In this document: piece by piece, positions 896-21,060 of the stretch | Numbering within the stretch: position 1 is the stretch's first letter | Layout: each line of letters starts with the position of its first letter | Origin: a virus | Virus record (IMG/VR): IMGVR_UViG_3300010354_000825 | Coordinates: 1 to 21,221 of that record | Length of the DNA stretch: 21,221 bases | Strand: one strand, 5' to 3' | Position numbers and translations under genes: made by a program | Notes under the pieces: generated by a model | The model's database searches: none | What the model was told of the DNA's origin: nothing | The model's input: only the letters and a program-made list of their open reading frames with translations

Positions 896-1446
896 CCAGT
901 TAAAATATATTTTTCGTTAGTTTGTGAAATTTGCCCTTTATGTAAATGAGTATATGATGCTGGAAATAAAACCGTATTTCCTTTTCTTGCAGTAGTAATA
1001 TAATCTTGATGATAAAATTCTGTTCCGCCATCTTCAACATCATTTAAATATGTAATATAAACAAAAGCTCTATCACAAGCATCTAAACTACCACCATCTG
1101 CGTGCCACGCATAATATCCTTGACCTTTTTCATAATATTGAATTTGAGGAAGAAATCTTGATGTAAATTTTTGATTTGTAAGTTTGTATTTTTTTAAGTA
1201 ATCATTTATAAAACTATCCAATTCTTTATGATACAAATCAAATTTGTAGTCTGATGGAGATCCTATTTCTAATGCTTTATTGAGAAAAAAATCTTTACTT
1301 TCTTTAAAATCTTTGTTTATATTTCCTGGTCCTCCAACACATCCTGGTGTAACTAATCCTCTTTTTTCTGCTTCGTGATACAACTCAATAAGAGCATCAC
1401 AAATAGATAAATCGGTTAATTGATATTCTTCAATAAAATTTGTCAT
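877..1446 (-). CDS. Putative prolyl-4-hydroxylase-like 2OG-Fe(II) oxygenase
   Basis: A 189-residue protein with a clear P4H-type 2OG-Fe(II) oxygenase domain (2OG-FeII_Oxy_3 type) in its C-terminal half. Numbering from this start, the motif YYAWHADGG gives iron ligands H115 and D117. FPASYTHLHKG supplies the distal His (H167, or H169), and K179 in KYILTGW is placed to bind 2-oxoglutarate. The strand DGGTEFYHQD between them is typical of the jelly-roll core. The N-terminal 90 residues are helical. I chose the ATG at 1446-1444 because it overlaps the stop of the upstream U32/methyltransferase gene as ATGA; the frame stays open upstream to 1482, which would add 12 residues and a 40-base overlap. 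Proteins of this family hydroxylate proline or other residues or small molecules; the substrate here is unknown. The neighbouring second oxygenase and U32-like gene suggest a joint modification module. Confidence 0.85.
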   Translation of the reverse strand: MTNFIEEYQLTDLSICDALIELYHEAEKRGLVTPGCVGGPGNINKDFKESKDFFLNKALEIGSPSDYKFDLYHKELDSFINDYLKKYKLTNQKFTSRFLPQIQYYEKGQGYYAWHADGGSLDACDRAFVYITYLNDVEDGGTEFYHQDYITTARKGNTVLFPASYTHLHKGQISQTNEKYILTGWIWWA

Positions 1447-3137
1447 TTTTCTAATACCATTATATAAAGACCATTCCACCAACTATTTTCATCTTCTGGG
1501 ATTGATGTTAATATTTTTCTATTAAACAAAACTTTTAAATTATTTTCTTGACAAAATTGATCTGCAGATTCTATAACTCCCATAAAGTTTGCATCATCCA
1601 ATATTAAAATAAATTTATTAGCAAAACATGGAAGCAAATGATTTAAATATAATTTTTGATTTTCTGGATCATGATCAGCATCATAAAAAATAATATTTGG
1701 TTTTGTTCCATAAAAATTACTTTGATCAACATCCAAAATAGATTTGTTTAATAAACATGTTTTGTTTGTTATTGCATTGGAAATAAAATAATCTTTTAAA
1801 TTTATATTTGGTAAATCAATATTCAAATCATCTCTAAATGGTTTAATATCTATCTGAGAAAAATCATCAACTGCAAATGACATACAATGATTATGATTTT
1901 CTATTGCAGCAAAAAATGTGCTTCCAGTATATAATCCCAGTTCAAGATAAACAGATCCAAATGAACCACATAAGTTATTTAAGAAATGTCTAACTTTATT
2001 TGATGATAAACCTCTAATATTAAAAGTTTTTTCGTCAAAAGAACTTTCATTTTTTGATGCTAAATCAATAGCATCCAATACAATTTTTACATATTCATCT
2101 AAAGTTCTATGTTCTTTCTTTAAACGTGATTCGATTACTGAATCACAGTATTTGCATTTCCAACAATCAAACCTACAAGTTTTGATTTTTTCTCTCCAAA
2201 TATCAATTGGTTTTTGCTCTATAGAAACATCTTCAATATAATCATTAAACTGTGGAAATAATATCTCTTCATTGGAAACCCAACGTTCAACTATATCCAT
2301 AGTTTCTTTTAAACGCATAGCATTTTCTCTGCCATGCATTTTAAAAACATCAATACCAAGATCGATAAATTCTTCCCAATCTTTTTTCCATGGAGGAAGA
2401 TTTGCTGCTTTTAAAGAAGTTGCTGGATCTTCTTCATCCCATTTGGAACAAGAAACTCTACTGATACTATCACTAAAATACTGTGGATTATTTGGTCTTC
2501 GTGAATTATTATAATGATAATGTTCGGTCATAATAGGGCATCCACCCCAACATCCTTCGTTTGCTAGCAAAGAAATCTTTACTGGGTTTCCAATAGTTTC
2601 ACAATAATCTTTAGCTTCTTTGATTCTGATAAGAGAATCCCTATCACGCATTAAATCTCTATCTAGATTGATGTAATTAAATCCTGCTTTTGCTAAAGAT
2701 ACTATTTCATTAGGTCTTGTTACTTCTCTGAGAATAGTATTTTTTACAAATAGTTCTGGAAATTCTTTCTGTATCTGCCCCGTCATCATCCATGATGTGT
2801 GGGGAATAGTTGCTATTCTTACACCTGCATCGTAGACTGGTTTAAAATGACTGATAAAAATATCTAAATTTTCCTGAGATGGAACAACTTGAATATTATT
2901 AAAAGTTGCTGATAGAGGTATTCCAGTTTGTTCCGAAATATACAAAGCATTTAGAGTGGTATCTCTAATATCTCCAATAAATGTATCGCCCATAGCATCC
3001 TGCAAAAACGGAGGCATACGGCATGTAAAATATAAATCGTAAATATAATTTTTATACTTTAAAAGAAATGGTATAAATGTATTGTCAACAAATTCCTCAT
3101 TCAACTTCGAGTTGATCGGGATCGAGAAAAGGCGCAT
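1443..3137 (-). CDS. Peptidase-U32-like domain fused to a class I SAM methyltransferase
   Basis: A 564-residue two-domain protein. Residues 1 to about 345 resemble the U32 family (UbiU/UbiV, RlhA, TrhP), TIM-barrel Fe-S proteins mostly involved in oxygen-independent hydroxylation of RNA or quinones rather than proteolysis. Visible signs are NEGCWGGCP with C196 and C200 followed by an H-rich EHYHYN stretch, C230, and DVFKMHGREN, matching the family's K-x-x-GR element. A further cluster C-x3-C-x2-C-x2-C (C321, C325, C328, C331) could bind another Fe-S cluster or zinc. Residues from about 365 to the end look like a Methyltransf_24/TylF-type methyltransferase: SVYLELGLYTGST is the SAM-binding motif I, followed by FYDADHDPE and FILILDD. 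It overlaps the 71-residue gene upstream by 41 bases and the P4H-like gene downstream by 4. No ribosome-binding site is obvious, so translation is probably coupled. The substrate is unknown. Confidence 0.75.
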   Translation of the reverse strand: MRLFSIPINSKLNEEFVDNTFIPFLLKYKNYIYDLYFTCRMPPFLQDAMGDTFIGDIRDTTLNALYISEQTGIPLSATFNNIQVVPSQENLDIFISHFKPVYDAGVRIATIPHTSWMMTGQIQKEFPELFVKNTILREVTRPNEIVSLAKAGFNYINLDRDLMRDRDSLIRIKEAKDYCETIGNPVKISLLANEGCWGGCPIMTEHYHYNNSRRPNNPQYFSDSISRVSCSKWDEEDPATSLKAANLPPWKKDWEEFIDLGIDVFKMHGRENAMRLKETMDIVERWVSNEEILFPQFNDYIEDVSIEQKPIDIWREKIKTCRFDCWKCKYCDSVIESRLKKEHRTLDEYVKIVLDAIDLASKNESSFDEKTFNIRGLSSNKVRHFLNNLCGSFGSVYLELGLYTGSTFFAAIENHNHCMSFAVDDFSQIDIKPFRDDLNIDLPNINLKDYFISNAITNKTCLLNKSILDVDQSNFYGTKPNIIFYDADHDPENQKLYLNHLLPCFANKFILILDDANFMGVIESADQFCQENNLKVLFNRKILTSIPEDENSWWNGLYIMVLEK

Positions 3138-3312
3138 AATCTTTTACCACTTTATTAATGAACTCTTGTTCTGTTTCTGGAACCATATCTTCGGCATGTC
3201 TCTTTGCAATTTGCAAGAGTGCATCTCTATTCAAATCTTTATTTTTATCTTTTAGATTATAGTATTGATAAACTTCATAATGAATAATTGGTAGTAACTC
3301 TAGATACCTCAT
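3097..3312 (-). CDS. Small protein of unknown function (71 residues)
   Basis: I do not recognise this gene. It encodes a 71-residue, mostly helical protein, aromatic-rich near the N-terminus (HYEVYQYYNL) and acidic at its C-terminus, with no membrane segment or cysteine. It starts in an ATGA overlap with the preceding gene (3309-3312) and has AAGG about 10 bases upstream of the ATG. Its last 41 bases also encode the first residues of the U32-like gene in another frame. Tight overlaps on both sides, and a frame that stays open between them, favour a real gene. It may work with the preceding 269-residue proteins, since the three form one overlapping block. Confidence 0.65.
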   Translation of the reverse strand: MRYLELLPIIHYEVYQYYNLKDKNKDLNRDALLQIAKRHAEDMVPETEQEFINKVVKDYAPFLDPDQLEVE

Positions 3313-4118
3313 TCTTCGCTACCTTTTAGTTTAAACTGACCATTATATTTATGAAACTCCAACTTGGGCAATGCAATACCTTCTTTTCCTAATTGATTTT
3401 GTATTTCTGGTAGTGTTAACTGATGCATTTTATCGATACCACCACCAATCATCCCAGAATATTTTACCGCAATCTCAAGTGTTTTTACTTGATCCTCTTC
3501 TCCCATTTCCATAATAGATGACATATTACCAGCACCTATTCTTCCATAGGAAATAATATCCATAGCAGCTTGTTTGCCCATCCTAGCAATCCAATAGATT
3601 CTTTCTTCTTCTTCATTCCTATTTGTATAATATTCTATTGGATGTTCTTCATCTACATATTGATCAATAATATCTAAAAATATTCTTATCTCTTCCTGAG
3701 CTTGTTTTAATTTTCTTTTCCAAATAGTGATATCATAATCATTTTTTTCTAAGTTAATTTGAGTTAACTCTTTTTCTAAATCATCTACAGAATTTTCAAT
3801 CTCTCTTAAAAATTTTTTTCTAATAACTTCTGCTTTTCTTAAACTTGTTCGTATTTCAATATAAGAATGATATCTAGTTTCCAACTCCATTAGTGCTTGT
3901 CTAGTTTTTCTCCATGGAGTTATTTGACTATCAGTAACAAAATGTTGACACTGATATTCAGTCATACCAGAATTAAAATGAAGTGCTTCTTCCATCCACT
4001 TCCATTCTTTTTCTGTTATGTTATATTCAGTAACAAAATCTTTACTAAGTTTAATATCACTTACGTCAGCACTAACTATTGCTTTAACGTTGTTGATAAA
4101 TTCAGAATTTAAAGACAT
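3309..4118 (-). CDS. Conserved-looking protein with a long coiled coil, function unknown
   Basis: A 269-residue charged protein not assigned to a family. Residues about 80-155 are a long helical, heptad-like stretch (KKFLREIENSVDDLEKELTQ) typical of a coiled coil. The C-terminal 75 residues contain small Gly-rich turns (SYGRIGAG, YSGMIGGG). The frame is open up to an ATG at 4226, but that start would give a 125-base overlap and a leader unlike the rest. The ATG at 4118-4116 is preferred because GAGG lies 9 bases ahead of it (4128-4131) and the overlap with the upstream gene shrinks to 17 bases. Its place in the late unit between adhesin-type genes and the enzyme cassette suggests a virion or assembly role, without direct proof. 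Confidence 0.75.
   Translation of the reverse strand: MSLNSEFINNVKAIVSADVSDIKLSKDFVTEYNITEKEWKWMEEALHFNSGMTEYQCQHFVTDSQITPWRKTRQALMELETRYHSYIEIRTSLRKAEVIRKKFLREIENSVDDLEKELTQINLEKNDYDITIWKRKLKQAQEEIRIFLDIIDQYVDEEHPIEYYTNRNEEEERIYWIARMGKQAAMDIISYGRIGAGNMSSIMEMGEEDQVKTLEIAVKYSGMIGGGIDKMHQLTLPEIQNQLGKEGIALPKLEFHKYNGQFKLKGSEE
3346..3353 (-). promoter_or_regulatory. Possible internal late promoter CATAAATA
   Basis: The minus strand reads CATAAATA, the same octamer as the well-placed site at 6215-6222, about 34 bases ahead of the 71-residue gene's ATG. It lies inside the coding region of the preceding gene, so it may be chance in AT-rich sequence. It would give the 71-residue gene and the enzyme cassette an entry point of their own. 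Confidence 0.3.
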
Positions 4119-4911
4119 AAGCATCAACCTCATACTCTGGTTTTCTATCCCAATCGGTTGGAGATTTAGTTCTTTCCAACTCAATTGCTTGAGAAGTTGG
4201 CATAATAATACCAAACATATCCTCATATAATATATTTAGATCCCATATTGTATCTGCTTCTTCAAACTGTTTGCATACTTTTTGGTAATCTACTAACATG
4301 GTAGAAAGTTTATCTTGATACTCTTCTGCTTTTTCTAAAATTTTAACAGCAAGATAATCTTTTTCCAATCCTCTTTCGTTAGCAATATAATCTAAAAATG
4401 GAGTGATGTGCCCATCAGATCCTTTATATGTTAACCACTCTCTAGCTTCATGCTTTTGAGTTTCCCATGACGCAGCTTCTAAATCTGTAGTATCTCTTAA
4501 AACTTTATAACGAGTATCAAATTCGTCTTGAACAATTTCAAGAGCAAAAATACGCATAAAATCTACAACTTCTTTTTTGATTTCATCTGTTAGAGGAACT
4601 TCTACTTTTAAAGTTCCTCCTGCTGGAGTATATGCTACTGCTTCTCCATTTACAGTTGCTAAAACTTTACCGTATGGTCTAACTTCAGCAAAAAAAGCAG
4701 CACCATTTTTTGCTTGTCTTTCCGTTACTTCTTTATATTTTTTATTCCATTGTTTGTGATAAATTTGAAATAAATTTTCACTTACTTCAATACAAGAAAA
4801 ATGCATGAGTTGAAACATTTCAACCATGTGGAGTCTTTCATCTCCAGTTTGGTTGGAGTTTAAATATAGATTAGGATTTACGTCGAATTCGTTGACGATT
4901 ATGTATCTCAT
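4102..4911 (-). CDS. Hypothetical late protein, 269 residues
   Basis: I do not recognise a named family. The protein opens with MRYIIVNEFDVNP and is rich in charged and aromatic residues. A beta-type segment around 70-105 (FFAEVRPYGKVLATVNGEAV) is followed by a mainly helical region from about 108 to 235, including a possible coiled coil around 185-220 (LEKAEEYQDKLSTMLVDYQK). There is no signal peptide or membrane span. The start is supported by a good ribosome-binding site, AAAGAGGA, with GAGG 7 bases from the ATG (4919-4922) and overlapping the stop codon region of the adhesin-like gene upstream. Its 3' end overlaps the next gene by 17 bases. The context suggests a tail- or fibre-associated function, such as an attachment or assembly factor for the preceding fibre proteins; this is inference. 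Confidence 0.75.
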   Translation of the reverse strand: MRYIIVNEFDVNPNLYLNSNQTGDERLHMVEMFQLMHFSCIEVSENLFQIYHKQWNKKYKEVTERQAKNGAAFFAEVRPYGKVLATVNGEAVAYTPAGGTLKVEVPLTDEIKKEVVDFMRIFALEIVQDEFDTRYKVLRDTTDLEAASWETQKHEAREWLTYKGSDGHITPFLDYIANERGLEKDYLAVKILEKAEEYQDKLSTMLVDYQKVCKQFEEADTIWDLNILYEDMFGIIMPTSQAIELERTKSPTDWDRKPEYEVDAYVFKF

Positions 4912-15930: not shown

Positions 15931-18900
15931 TTACTTTTTGATAACGGTGGATACTACGGTTATATTTACAATATTACCATTAGAAAGACTTGATACTAAA
16001 CTATTATTTAATCTAACATTATTACTTGCATCAAAATCAAAGGAAGGTATTATCAAATCAACTCCAGTAGTCACATTTCCATATTCTGTGTGGAAAATAT
16101 CAGTTCCTTTTGCAATCACAGTGAACTCAATCATATCTCTGTGATTTGTTGTTGTGTTGTCAGCAATAACAGCAACTTTAGCTCCAGAATGAATAGTTGG
16201 ATCAAATATAACAGAAGCACCAGAGTTTGTTGTTCCCTTTGTTAAAGTGTATTCTGAAGTTTGTATTAAAACATCATCCATTTCAAACTTTTTCAATTCA
16301 TTATCTAAAACTTTTATTAAAGTATTGGTGCCAGTGCCATAAGTTTTATTAATATAAATGTCACCAGAATTATTTAATCTAATCAATGGATCTGTAGTGA
16401 GACCAGATGATAGTGCAAAATCAAGATTTGTTTTTGTTGTTAAAAACTTAGCAATAGCAAGATCAGAAGTATCTAGAGTAACTGCAAGTGAGTTAAATGT
16501 TACTGTTTGAGCTTGAAGATCTAAATTATTATTTGTAGATCCAATTTGATCAATAGTATTAAATAATAATTCTGTATTATTCAGTCTTAAAGTATTGCTA
16601 CCGTTATTATAAAAATATAAAGTATTTTCATTAGCTCCAGGTTCTGTTTCTGGAATAATATAAGTATTTCCATCAACATCCCTTACTCCACCAAGACTTG
16701 TCCAGTTTGTTCCATTGTATCCTTCAAACTGAGATAAATCAGTGTTATAACGAACAGAACCTTGACCTGGGATTCCTCTTTGAGCCGTTGTTCCATTTGG
16801 CAATACAAGAGAAGTATTGGTGTTAATATCTACTTTTTTACCCGAGAAAGGTTCCAAAACAAGATCAGAAAGTAGAGTTGTAATTTTATTATCAAATAGT
16901 TTTAACTCTCCGTTTAAAACAAGATTATTTTTTATATTTACATTTGCAACTCTATCAAATGTAATATCGGAAGCATAGATTGAATACCAAGTAAGTTGTG
17001 CAGTTCCGTTTGTTGCAACTCCAGTAGTGTGTGTAGGTTCATTGCCAGAACTACCAGTAGTTCCTGCAGTGGTTACTTGATATAAATTTAAACCATAAGA
17101 AATATAAGTGCCAATAGAAACAGGGGTATTAGAAGACCATGGCACTGATGGTGGGTTTAATGGATCTGGAGAATCAATATATTTTAAAGTATTAAATGTA
17201 AATCTAGATGGAGTTATTTTTACAGTGTTATTTCCATCATTAAAGAAATATAATGTATTATCATTTGCCCCAACAGAAGCTTCTGCAGAAATATAAGTAT
17301 TTCCATCAAGATCTCGCACCCCACCTAAAGAAGACCAAGAAGATGTTGAAGCACTATAACCTTCATATTGACCAGTATCAGTGTTGAATCTTATAGATCC
17401 ATTGCTTACTACGCCACTGGTAGGTCTTTGGGCAGTGCTTCCTGCGGGAATTGTTAGGGCAGTATTGGTGTTAACTTTTAAAACTCTTCCTGAAGCAGGG
17501 GAAGCAATAATATCATTACCAGAAGAAGAAGCAATAGTATTATTTGTTATAGTTACATAATCATTTACATTCAAAGAATTTGTTGTTTTTAGAACACCTG
17601 TGGTGGTTAAGTTACCACTAGCAACACCCAAAGTGAAAGTAGTTCCAATCTTTACATTAGTTCCGCTGGTTTGAGCAATTTTTATTTCTCCACCCGCATC
17701 GATCGTCATATCTCCAGTTGATGCTATAGCAGGAGAAATGATATCGTCTATTGTTGCAGTTGTGGCGTCAAAACTTGTTGAATTTAAATTTGTAATAGTA
17801 CCATTAGTTCCTGTAAATATAGTTGCTGATAGCTCACCCGTTAGAAGATCGGTTTCAATTACATTTGATGAAGTTACATTTGTTACTACTATTTGCAATC
17901 CACTTCCAAAAGTTTTTGGATTATTTGGATCTATTGTTATTACTGCTTCGTCATTATCAAATCCTCCTTCATCAGCATGAGATGCATTTTCAGTGCCACA
18001 ATAATAATATAAAGATGGTGTGTTTGATGTTACCTTAACAACAAGTGCTTCTGGATTTGTTTCTCTAGTAACACCATCCGTATATTCACCACCATAAATT
18101 TTTAAAGTAATAGATCCAGAAGTTATTGGAGTTTTATCTAAAGTAATTTGTGTTCCACTATCTACAGTTAATATTTTTGTATCTGAAGCTAACTGCCCGT
18201 TTCCTAAACCAGTTTCTTCAACAATCATTCCTGGATAAAGACCAGTAGTGCTTGATACAGTAACTTGGGGTGATAACGCAGAAACGTTTGTGGATATATT
18301 CTGCACCAAACTTGGTGCCCATCTACCATCTCTAAATTTACTCAATGCAAAAATATGACCACTGTTGCTTGCATCAGATAAATTAAATTTATATGTATTA
18401 CCTACATAGAAAGTTAAATCTGGAGAAATTTGTTCTCCACTTCCTGTGTCAATGAAATATCTATAAATGTTGGATGTAGAAGCAACTTGGTATAATGTAG
18501 AACTAGTTGTCTTTACAATATATGAGTTGGCGTTTACATTAATGCCACCAGTAACAATATTCGTTACATATCCACCTGAAGTATTTACTTCGTAAATATA
18601 AGTATCAGTTCCTGGAACAGTTACTGATGTGACAGTAATGGTTAAATTATCTGCAGGAGCAGATCCACCAATAGATGTTCCTAAAACTGTAACAGTGTCA
18701 TTTTGTGCATAATTAACACCAGCATTTGTTACTGATACTTGTGTTACTGCTCCACTATTATTTCTGAAAATTGAAAAAACTGCCCCAATTCCATTTCCAG
18801 ATGTAGAACTTGGAGTTATATTTGTATATGATGCATTTGCTTGCCCAGCAATAGTGGTAGCACTAGTTGGTGCTGCTGAACCTATTGAACCTCCAGGTGT

Positions 18901-21060
18901 TTTTATGTATTGTCCTACTGCAAATGTATTCGCTGGGAGAGTAGCACTAGTAAAAACAACCTTAGATAAAGTTTTATTTGTTACTGTATACTCTATTGGT
19001 TGAATTAAATCTGTGGCGGATACTGTTAAGATATCTCCAACAGAATAACCATTTCCACCATCATTAACTGAGATATCTTTAACAGGTCCAATATCATTTA
19101 AAGTAAATGCAAAATTAGATCCATTACCATATGAAGGTGTGAAATCAAGAACAACATTTCCTGGGGTGGTTGGTTGTTGAGATAATGTTAAAACTGTTGC
19201 ACTATCAATAGCAGTAACTGATGTTCCATTTGCTAATACACCAGTTCCACTTACCTTTGAAACAGACCAACCAACTTTAATTCCACTTGTACTTGTTACA
19301 GTAATTTTACTTCTGTTTGCATTGGTAATTTTTAAATCTGCTGTTCCGCTTGCTTGTGGCGCTGATGATAAAGTTATTTGAGTGCCATTTACAATACTTG
19401 CTACTGTTGTGCCACTAACTAACGCTCCAGTATTTGCTGGATTACCTGGAACAGTTTCTACAGTATCTCCTACAAAAACTCCTGTTGTAGTCGTTAAAGT
19501 TACTGTAGTGGAAGCAGAGTTTAAAGTTCTACCATTATCAAATATGATACCTTTTAAATATGTTGAAACATTGTTTACAGATGATGGTAATGTTAAAACA
19601 TCTCCTGTTTGGTATCCTGTTCCATATTCATCGAAAGTTGTTATTGCCTGAATTTGACCAGCATTTGCTGCTAACGTATATTGAAATCCAGAACCAGATC
19701 CACCTAGATTAGTATTTGCTGCTGATAGAACGTCATTAGCAGAATATCCATTTCCAGAAGATTGTATAGCAACTGATGAAACAGTTCCAGATAGAGCAGT
19801 AATAGTTGCAGCAAAATCAGATCCCGTTGTTGAAGTTACTAATGTTAAACTTCCTCCCATATTAGGATGAAGAGAACAGTTATAATAAACTGGCGAAGCA
19901 GCAGGATTTAACGGAACTACAAAAGTTACAGTTCTAGTTGTTGCTGTAGCAAAATTTGCCAAATAATTTGCTGGAGTTACTACAGATCCATCTAATCGGT
20001 ATGTGACTCCATCTGCTGTTCCTAAAATACTATTTGTGTCATTTAATGCAGATCCTATGTATAATGGATGACCAGGAGCTCCAGATGCATCAAAAACATA
20101 TGTTTTCCCTTTTAATAATGAAAAATTACCTCCCTGAACACCATCCAAATAATAAAGACCGCCAGAAGCAGTTACTGTATATGTAATAGTTCCTGCTGTT
20201 GGGAATGTAGTTGTTAGAACGTCACCAACAATATATCCAGAACCAGCAGTAGTTAAACTACTACCAGCACCACCAAAAGGTTGAACCGAACCTCCATTTA
20301 CTATTAACTTTGCTTTAGCACCAGATCCAGTTCCTCCAGTTAATGGAACACTCAAAAAAGTTCCATCTGGATAACCAGCACCATTTACAACATTTGCTGA
20401 AAATGATGATACTGTAATATTTGCAGTTATACCTGTACCAGTTCCCCCAGTTAAAGGAACGTTGGTGTAAGTACCACCAACATATCCAGATCCAGCATTA
20501 GTTATTGAACCACCAATATTAGGAATAGTGAATGAAGCAGTTGCACCGTTACCACTACCTCCAGATAAAGGAACAGATAAGTATGATCCAGATGTATATC
20601 CGCTTCCAGTATTTGTAATAGTTCCTGTAAAACCAGCTACTTCAATATTTAAAGTTCCATTTTCGCCACTGCCACCAACGACTGCAATATCACTATAAGT
20701 TCCTGCGTCATAATTACTTCCATCGTTGGTTATTTGTAACCCTAAACTATCTAAAGATTTTTTTTGAACTACAATGTCTCTATAAAAAACCGAAGAATCT
20801 GATTTAAAATCTAGTAATTTTTTATCGTCACTTACTATTCCAATTACTTTATTTGATGGTTTGTATATACCTAACTTTTCATCACTAACAAATGCCAAAC
20901 TGGGGGAAGATATAGTTCCGTCGCCTAGTTTTAAATTGCCAGTAGATAAATCACTACCACCCGAAGATATGGTGTAAACATCTGAAGCGATCTGATTTAT
21001 CTTCTGCCTCTGAGTTTCCAGAGTATCGGTTTTTGCTACATTTCTAAGTATTGCTGGCAT
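15931..21060 (-). CDS. Large multi-domain virion protein with cupredoxin-like segments
   Basis: A 1709-residue protein. In order: an N-terminal region (1-100) probably used for attachment (MPAILRNVAKTDTLETQRQK); Gly-rich repeats at 145-290 (GSGYTSGSYLSVPLSGG type); a cupredoxin-like domain at about 300-408 with H331, C395, H398 and M401; further Gly-rich repeats; modules of about 60 residues at 512-580 and 585-642; a second cupredoxin-like segment at about 876-1045 interrupted by a third copy of that module; then a fibre-type part with a 90-residue duplication (1195-1285 and 1412-1502). The first copy is followed by a WSSNTPVSIGTYISYG module at about 1307-1360 that resembles small carbohydrate-binding modules. 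There is no signal peptide. The protein probably forms an elongated, exposed virion structure. The start overlaps the end of the upstream gene by 17 bases; a weak AGAGA lies ahead of it. Confidence 0.85.
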   Translation of the reverse strand: MPAILRNVAKTDTLETQRQKINQIASDVYTISSGGSDLSTGNLKLGDGTISSPSLAFVSDEKLGIYKPSNKVIGIVSDDKKLLDFKSDSSVFYRDIVVQKKSLDSLGLQITNDGSNYDAGTYSDIAVVGGSGENGTLNIEVAGFTGTITNTGSGYTSGSYLSVPLSGGSGNGATASFTIPNIGGSITNAGSGYVGGTYTNVPLTGGTGTGITANITVSSFSANVVNGAGYPDGTFLSVPLTGGTGSGAKAKLIVNGGSVQPFGGAGSSLTTAGSGYIVGDVLTTTFPTAGTITYTVTASGGLYYLDGVQGGNFSLLKGKTYVFDASGAPGHPLYIGSALNDTNSILGTADGVTYRLDGSVVTPANYLANFATATTRTVTFVVPLNPAASPVYYNCSLHPNMGGSLTLVTSTTGSDFAATITALSGTVSSVAIQSSGNGYSANDVLSAANTNLGGSGSGFQYTLAANAGQIQAITTFDEYGTGYQTGDVLTLPSSVNNVSTYLKGIIFDNGRTLNSASTTVTLTTTTGVFVGDTVETVPGNPANTGALVSGTTVASIVNGTQITLSSAPQASGTADLKITNANRSKITVTSTSGIKVGWSVSKVSGTGVLANGTSVTAIDSATVLTLSQQPTTPGNVVLDFTPSYGNGSNFAFTLNDIGPVKDISVNDGGNGYSVGDILTVSATDLIQPIEYTVTNKTLSKVVFTSATLPANTFAVGQYIKTPGGSIGSAAPTSATTIAGQANASYTNITPSSTSGNGIGAVFSIFRNNSGAVTQVSVTNAGVNYAQNDTVTVLGTSIGGSAPADNLTITVTSVTVPGTDTYIYEVNTSGGYVTNIVTGGINVNANSYIVKTTSSTLYQVASTSNIYRYFIDTGSGEQISPDLTFYVGNTYKFNLSDASNSGHIFALSKFRDGRWAPSLVQNISTNVSALSPQVTVSSTTGLYPGMIVEETGLGNGQLASDTKILTVDSGTQITLDKTPITSGSITLKIYGGEYTDGVTRETNPEALVVKVTSNTPSLYYYCGTENASHADEGGFDNDEAVITIDPNNPKTFGSGLQIVVTNVTSSNVIETDLLTGELSATIFTGTNGTITNLNSTSFDATTATIDDIISPAIASTGDMTIDAGGEIKIAQTSGTNVKIGTTFTLGVASGNLTTTGVLKTTNSLNVNDYVTITNNTIASSSGNDIIASPASGRVLKVNTNTALTIPAGSTAQRPTSGVVSNGSIRFNTDTGQYEGYSASTSSWSSLGGVRDLDGNTYISAEASVGANDNTLYFFNDGNNTVKITPSRFTFNTLKYIDSPDPLNPPSVPWSSNTPVSIGTYISYGLNLYQVTTAGTTGSSGNEPTHTTGVATNGTAQLTWYSIYASDITFDRVANVNIKNNLVLNGELKLFDNKITTLLSDLVLEPFSGKKVDINTNTSLVLPNGTTAQRGIPGQGSVRYNTDLSQFEGYNGTNWTSLGGVRDVDGNTYIIPETEPGANENTLYFYNNGSNTLRLNNTELLFNTIDQIGSTNNNLDLQAQTVTFNSLAVTLDTSDLAIAKFLTTKTNLDFALSSGLTTDPLIRLNNSGDIYINKTYGTGTNTLIKVLDNELKKFEMDDVLIQTSEYTLTKGTTNSGASVIFDPTIHSGAKVAVIADNTTTNHRDMIEFTVIAKGTDIFHTEYGNVTTGVDLIIPSFDFDASNNVRLNNSLVSSLSNGNIVNITVVSTVIKK
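16555..17478 (-). repeat. 90-residue fibre-module duplication with an inserted module
   Basis: Residues 1195-1285 and 1412-1502 align along their length: NTNTALTIPAGSTAQR / NTNTSLVLPNGTTAQR; IRFNTDTGQYEGY / VRYNTDLSQFEGY; SLGGVRDLDGNTYI / SLGGVRDVDGNTYI; GANDNTLYFFNDG / GANENTLYFYNNG. After the first copy only, residues about 1307-1360 (WSSNTPVSIGTYISYGLNLY then TTAGTTGS and PTHTTG) form an extra module. The TAQR...YNTD...EGY element is a common phage fibre repeat. Confidence 0.85.
17926..18423 (-). other. Second, interrupted cupredoxin-like segment
   Basis: Residues about 880-1045 start like domain 1 (LTFYVGNTYKFNLSDASNSG with HIFAL, H902) and end like it (SLYYYCGTENASH, C1021 and H1028, then AVITID). 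Between the halves, residues 927-990 are a copy of the repeat module found at 512-580. Spacing is C-x6-H and there is no axial Met, so copper binding is doubtful. Confidence 0.55.
19135..19527 (-). repeat. Two tandem copies of a 60-residue TxTTGVxxGD module
   Basis: Residues 512-580 and 585-642 share V-T-x-T-(S/T)-G-(V/I)-x-V-G-(D/W)-x-V, then G-x-x-V-(S/A)-(G/N)-T-x-V, then G/A-T-x-(I/L)-T-L-S-x-x-P and a final strand. A third copy at 927-990 (TTGLYPGMIV, GTQITLDKTPITSG) sits inside the second cupredoxin-like segment. Confidence 0.75.
19837..20163 (-). other. Cupredoxin-like (type 1 copper) domain with full ligand set
   Basis: Residues 300-408 show the plastocyanin/amicyanin-type order: FSLLKGKTYVFDASGAPGH with H331, a central segment, then TVTFVVP and VYYNCSLHPNMGG with C395, H398 and M401. 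The C-x2-H-x2-M spacing equals that of amicyanin (CTPHPFM). All four ligands expected of a type 1 copper site are present. This is a motif call without a structure or alignment. Confidence 0.65.
20281..20628 (-). repeat. Tandem Gly-rich GSGYTSGSYLSVPLSGG repeats
   Basis: Residues 145-260 carry three consecutive units of about 37-40 residues: GSGYTSGSYLSVPLSGGSGN, GSGYVGGTYTNVPLTGGTGT and GAGYPDGTFLSVPLTGGTGS, each followed by an Ala/Ile/Val strand. A partial unit (GSGYIVGDVL) follows at about 273. Related single units recur at about 434-445, 480 and 668-680. Confidence 0.88.

Follow-up and report, generated by a model that had tools for sequence, protein, structure and literature searches.

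Does a phage tail protein carry a genuine copper site? Copper proteins are unexpected in virus particles, and the question was raised by the window, i.e. the entire stretch of 21,221 nucleotides, a virus record from IMG/VR, that was analysed. In it, the initial annotation had picked out H331 in APGHPLYIG and C395, H398 and M401 in YYNCSLHPNMGG as a complete type 1 copper ligand set. All four residues could be found in the translation of a 1709 aa ORF (positions 15931–21060, minus strand), and the amicyanin-type C-x2-H-x2-M spacing that had been claimed for them is indeed present at C395-H398-M401. The first His ligand, H331 of the GHPLY motif, is encoded at 20068–20070, the Cys ligand C395 at 19876–19878, the second His ligand H398 at 19867–19869 and the axial ligand M401 at 19858–19860, all on the minus strand. 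They lie in domain 1, which comprises residues 291–412 (19825–20190, minus strand) and was recognized by AlphaFold2, Foldseek and profile homology. We read domain 1 as a true cupredoxin domain, probably copper-binding, that serves as a tail or baseplate module, and we give this reading as a whole a probability of about two in three.

The 1709 aa ORF matches phrog_6005 (virion structural protein), and a match to phrog_708 (baseplate wedge) covers domain 1. Its best named relatives are from T4-like Synechococcus phages, among them S330809_093 of S-CAM4 (41% identity over 98%). The protein, which has two cupredoxin-like domains, thus appears to be a tail or baseplate part of a T4-like marine cyanophage, with its location in the virion following from the family annotation. 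It contains only two Cys residues (C395 and C1021), together with 8 His and 6 Met. We also noticed tandem GSGY...GTY..VPLTGG-TG modules at residues 135–265 or so (window about 20260–20660, minus strand), immediately ahead of domain 1. Promoter and terminator scans gave no signal above shuffled sequences.

The AlphaFold2 model of domain 1, for which the A2 alignment (53 virion copies) served as input, is all-beta, with a pLDDT of 96.4 and a pTM of 0.90. When it was compared with the PDB by Foldseek, cupredoxins led the matches among compact proteins, namely AcoP (E 3e-4), Anabaena plastocyanin (8e-4), rusticyanin (1e-3) and small laccase (1e-3). The probability was 1.00 for AcoP, plastocyanin and rusticyanin; the TM-scores of the PDB matches were modest (0.46–0.52, rmsd 5–7 Å). 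Peptidyl-arginine deiminases were the other frequent matches, and we take their N-terminal domain to be cupredoxin-like as well. The predicted structure therefore agrees with the cupredoxin fold that had been proposed for this region. Among predicted viral proteins, the best Foldseek matches were cyanophage virion and tail-fibre proteins. Beta-sandwich proteins from Marseillevirus and Pithovirus metagenome entries (A0A481YVH3, A0A481Z6J5 and others) also matched the fold of domain 1 in this search.

On its own, the domain 1 sequence has no cupredoxin match in Pfam or the PDB (phmmer), as might be the case if a chance motif had arisen in an unrelated beta domain. We built profiles of the window family (A4) and of the virion copies of the L090 type (A6). 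With the A6 profile, 41 PDB sequences were retrieved at E<=0.1, and every one of them is either a type 1 copper protein or a copper enzyme that contains such a domain. The two profiles were aligned by hhalign with a probability of 96.8% and an E-value of 2.4e-10, and their columns for HP, C, H and M coincide. In addition, two virion copies pass the curated cut-off of 21.2 bits for PF00127 Copper-bind (L050 with 23.8 and L090 with 21.5 bits). Of all Pfam matches of the virion copies, the one to PF25489 has the lowest E-value (2.2e-7), and 7 of the 53 members match this At5g54830-like domain, which is named after a plant protein. Judged by these profiles, domain 1 shares ancestry with the type 1 (blue) copper proteins, the link running through paralogous virion copies.

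The closest known proteins are amicyanin, pseudoazurin and plastocyanin (PF00127), which share the cupredoxin fold and the His...Cys-x2-His...Met arrangement with domain 1. However, they are small secreted electron carriers, whereas domain 1 is embedded in a large virion protein, and their first His is followed by Asn (HN) instead of Pro (HP). The C-x2-H-x2-M loop has the same length as the CTPHPFM loop of amicyanin, but the amicyanin model TIGR02657 is matched weakly by only 4 of the 53 virion copies, and domain 1 of the window is not among them; we therefore do not regard it as amicyanin proper. Plastocyanin could be dismissed as well. Two virion copies match TIGR02656, while for domain 1 the profile probability is 0.6% and the loop is two residues shorter than the C-x2-H-x4-M of petE. 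Some relatives of the window protein have an axial Gln, as do stellacyanin and Gln-type T1 copper proteins from unrelated contexts, such as TsNirK; Gln is known to occur naturally as the axial ligand of type 1 sites (PMC6400189). The likeness concerns the axial residue of the relatives; the window protein itself has Met and so lacks the axial Gln of stellacyanins and phytocyanins.

The ligands do not vary freely among homologues. Dereplication at 90% left 16 sequences of the window family, with pairwise identities as low as 41%; H331, C395 and H398 are invariant among them (16/16), and the axial position is Met in 11 and Gln in 5. All four ligands are present in 20 of 20 members of the L090 group, whose mean identity is 56% and lowest identity 32%, and they are likewise invariant in the C-terminal domains of gp9 (34/34). 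By composition, C-x2-H-x2-M would be expected 3.3e-5 times in the 1709 aa protein. Given this low expectation, the invariance of H, C and H and the restriction of the axial position to Met or Gln, the motif is not a product of chance; together with fold and profile homology, these data refute a coincidental motif, to which we assign a negligible probability.

A wider set of 179 unique virion copies (36 clusters at 60% clustering) showed how the site is lost. Where H, C and H are complete, the axial residue is Met in 87 copies, Gln in 15 and another residue in 2; copies without the full H, C and H set have Y, D, H, V, L, A and more in this column. Among the 60% clusters, the ligands co-occur with Fisher values of 5e-6 (H1/C), 8e-5 (H1/H2) and 2e-5 (C/H2) within an overall range of 5e-6 to 1e-2, which are indicative only, since the sequences are related. 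Across the 179 aligned copies, the ligands are thus retained or lost jointly. They are absent from about a quarter of the virion copies, so the fold is independent of copper, and the ligandless copies retain the fold residues G28, T30, Y31, F33, G61, Y64, Y102 and G112 (domain numbering). Joint loss with retained fold residues is the pattern that would be expected from a metal-selected site whose fold can outlive the metal.

The same ligandless paralogues could also mean that phages merely reuse the cupredoxin fold as a binding or spacer module, with the ligands forming a hydrogen-bonded or metal-free core that holds no copper in nature. The repeat-rich character of the 1709 aa protein, with its other beta modules, would suit such a use. 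However, all-or-none ligand loss and an axial Met or Gln in 102 of 104 copies are hard to explain without a metal, and it would be unusual to keep a free Cys in a protein of this size that has only two. We consider metal-free reuse unlikely, though worth keeping in mind, and it is probable that domain 1 binds copper. According to this copper-binding reading, one copper ion would be held by H331, C395, H398 and M401, and its main job would be to lock or rigidify the loops that carry the ligands in a tail or baseplate module, while the metal site would also be free for host contact. Copper is scarce in the cytoplasm, which makes copper loading inside the host uncertain.

Judged by homology, most marine myoviruses of cyanobacteria have related domains in their tails. 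Searches of whole genomes with A2 detected 3–5 copies each in S-CAM4, S-SSM5, P-RSM6, P-SSM2, Syn9, S-SM1 and P-SSM4; the P-RSM6-like copies have Gln at the axial position. No copy was detected by these searches in T4, the pelagiphage HTVC008M, the podoviruses P-SSP7 and Syn5, the freshwater phages S-CRM01 and Ma-LMM01, or phiM12. The C-terminal domain of gp9 (L123–L126, from P-SSM4, S-SSM5, S-SM1 and Syn9) is a ligand-complete cupredoxin-like domain and is shared by about 340 phage records, nearly all of them from marine cyanophages, in which gp9 is labelled only as baseplate wedge connector. An L090-type query matched 353 phage records, among them a Prochlorococcus podovirus and a pelagiphage (one each). 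The complete ligand set is present in gp9 (baseplate wedge/tail-fibre connector) and in copy A of the adjoining wedge protein, and has been lost from copy B; Syn9 and P-SSM4 have complete sites in both proteins. Giant ORFs of about 2,900–3,300 aa on marine viral contigs (L041, L048, L051, L054, L056 and L073) contain up to seven cupredoxin-like copies, with complete and erased ligand sets within one chain. A contig binned as Rhodopirellula sp. (L140, NZVD01000020.1) encodes cyanophage gp9 and wedge proteins and is evidently a misbinned phage contig.

This near confinement to marine cyanophages, together with a full type 1 set tuned by Met or Gln, could point to a copper site with redox activity, which would sense or exchange electrons where the tail meets the host envelope, for instance to gate tail contraction or to contribute to the light-dependent adsorption reported for several marine cyanomyoviruses (PMC2984593). 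We regard such a function as very improbable. S-PM2, a standard marine cyanomyovirus, has only one partial copy according to the A2 genome search and no complete H-C-H-M copies, and its orthologue of the window protein has domain 2 and lacks domain 1, which argues against a general requirement for a redox or light-linked role. Moreover, an electron partner was not found. The initial annotation had suggested a link to host plastocyanin, but this idea found no support. The same phages do encode a type 1 copper protein, the petE plastocyanin, but as a small exported host-like protein whose gene is separate in 6 of the 8 cyanomyoviruses examined. Since the window family profile gave no significant match to phage petE plastocyanin, a direct derivation from petE was dropped.

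A genome scan yielded two bacterial homologues with complete ligand sets (L138 and L139). One, from a Trueperaceae MAG, is small, consists of a single domain and has an apparent signal peptide; the other, from a Flavobacteriaceae MAG, is a CHRD-cupredoxin protein. They make a secreted bacterial cupredoxin plausible as ancestor. Such a protein was probably acquired by the phages and then duplicated across the tail proteins (gp9, the adjoining wedge protein and the giant fibres), with some copies dropping the site and retaining the fold as a plain beta-sandwich module.

The second cupredoxin-like domain of the 1709 aa protein, which the initial annotation had not mentioned, comprises residues 850–1050 or so (17911–18513, minus strand), with the copy itself at about 858–1025 or 858–1035. 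It is related to the virion cupredoxin family by iterated profile search (E 1e-23) and to the domain 1 family by hhalign (91.7%), and it contains an inserted module of roughly 70 aa; its AlphaFold2 model is poor (pLDDT 72). Alignment A3 places its first His at H902 in GHIFALS (18355–18357). Comparison of the copies and the composition of the protein single out C1021 in YYYC, the only other Cys (17998–18000), followed by H1028 (17977–17979) and by E1031 (17968–17970), which takes the position of Met or Gln in domain 1 (all on the minus strand). The resulting motif is H...C-x6-H-x2-E-G-G. Its Glu and its second His are conserved in 23 of 23 copies, including those of S-PM2 and S-CAM4, although these two residues played no part in selecting the copies. 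Domain 2 may therefore have a candidate metal site of a different kind. A comparison with the red copper site of nitrosocyanin (His2-Cys-Glu) suggests itself, since H, C, H and E are invariant in domain 2, but the loop order of nitrosocyanin is a different one, and the domain 2 model is poor.

Cupredoxin Cys/His sites can accept zinc, and the virion might therefore hold another metal of this sort instead of copper, with the invariant H...C-x6-H-x2-E of domain 2 as the better candidate site. For domain 1 this is at odds with the Met/Gln rule at the axial position, which is a copper pattern, and with the fact that the close homologues of known structure are all copper proteins. A different metal in the virion seems to us improbable, and we retain copper as the likely occupant of domain 1.

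In the open-licence literature searched, we found no description of virion cupredoxins, and the annotation of these proteins in PHROGs and phage records does not go beyond virion, baseplate or tail fibre. Cupredoxins as a class are well known; what appears to be new is the virion setting of one that has a type 1-like site. Iron in phage tails has already been discussed, unlike copper within the literature searched: T4 gp37 binds iron, and iron-binding HxH sites have been proposed for tail fibres of marine phages, cyanophages included (the 'Ferrojan Horse', PMC11705849). These tail-fibre metal sites set a precedent for structural metal in the proposed copper module, but they hold iron on histidine pairs in a trimeric fibre and involve neither the cupredoxin fold nor copper. 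If the cupredoxin sites do contain copper, the infection machinery of an abundant group of ocean viruses is copper-bearing, and this would matter both for cyanophage attachment and for the marine copper pool. One may go further and picture marine cyanophage virions as copper particles, in which gp9, the adjoining wedge protein and the fibres each have type 1 sites, dozens per tail, in addition to the His-Cys-His-Glu site of the window family, and in which copper acts in adsorption or tail triggering. This extension is doubtful; if true, it would parallel the Ferrojan Horse idea, with copper in place of iron.

A few other genes of the window deserve mention. The minus-strand ORFs at 3309–4226 and 4102–4911 (phrog_1409 and phrog_1604) overlap by 125 bases, and the mechanical start of the first is probably too far upstream. 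Two 2OG-Fe(II) oxygenase genes (PF13759 and PF13640) are adjacent and overlapping at 287–895 and 877–1482 on the minus strand. This pair is adjoined by an ORF of 564 aa (1443–3137), which has a weak match to Methyltransf_24 and several Cys residues in its middle part.
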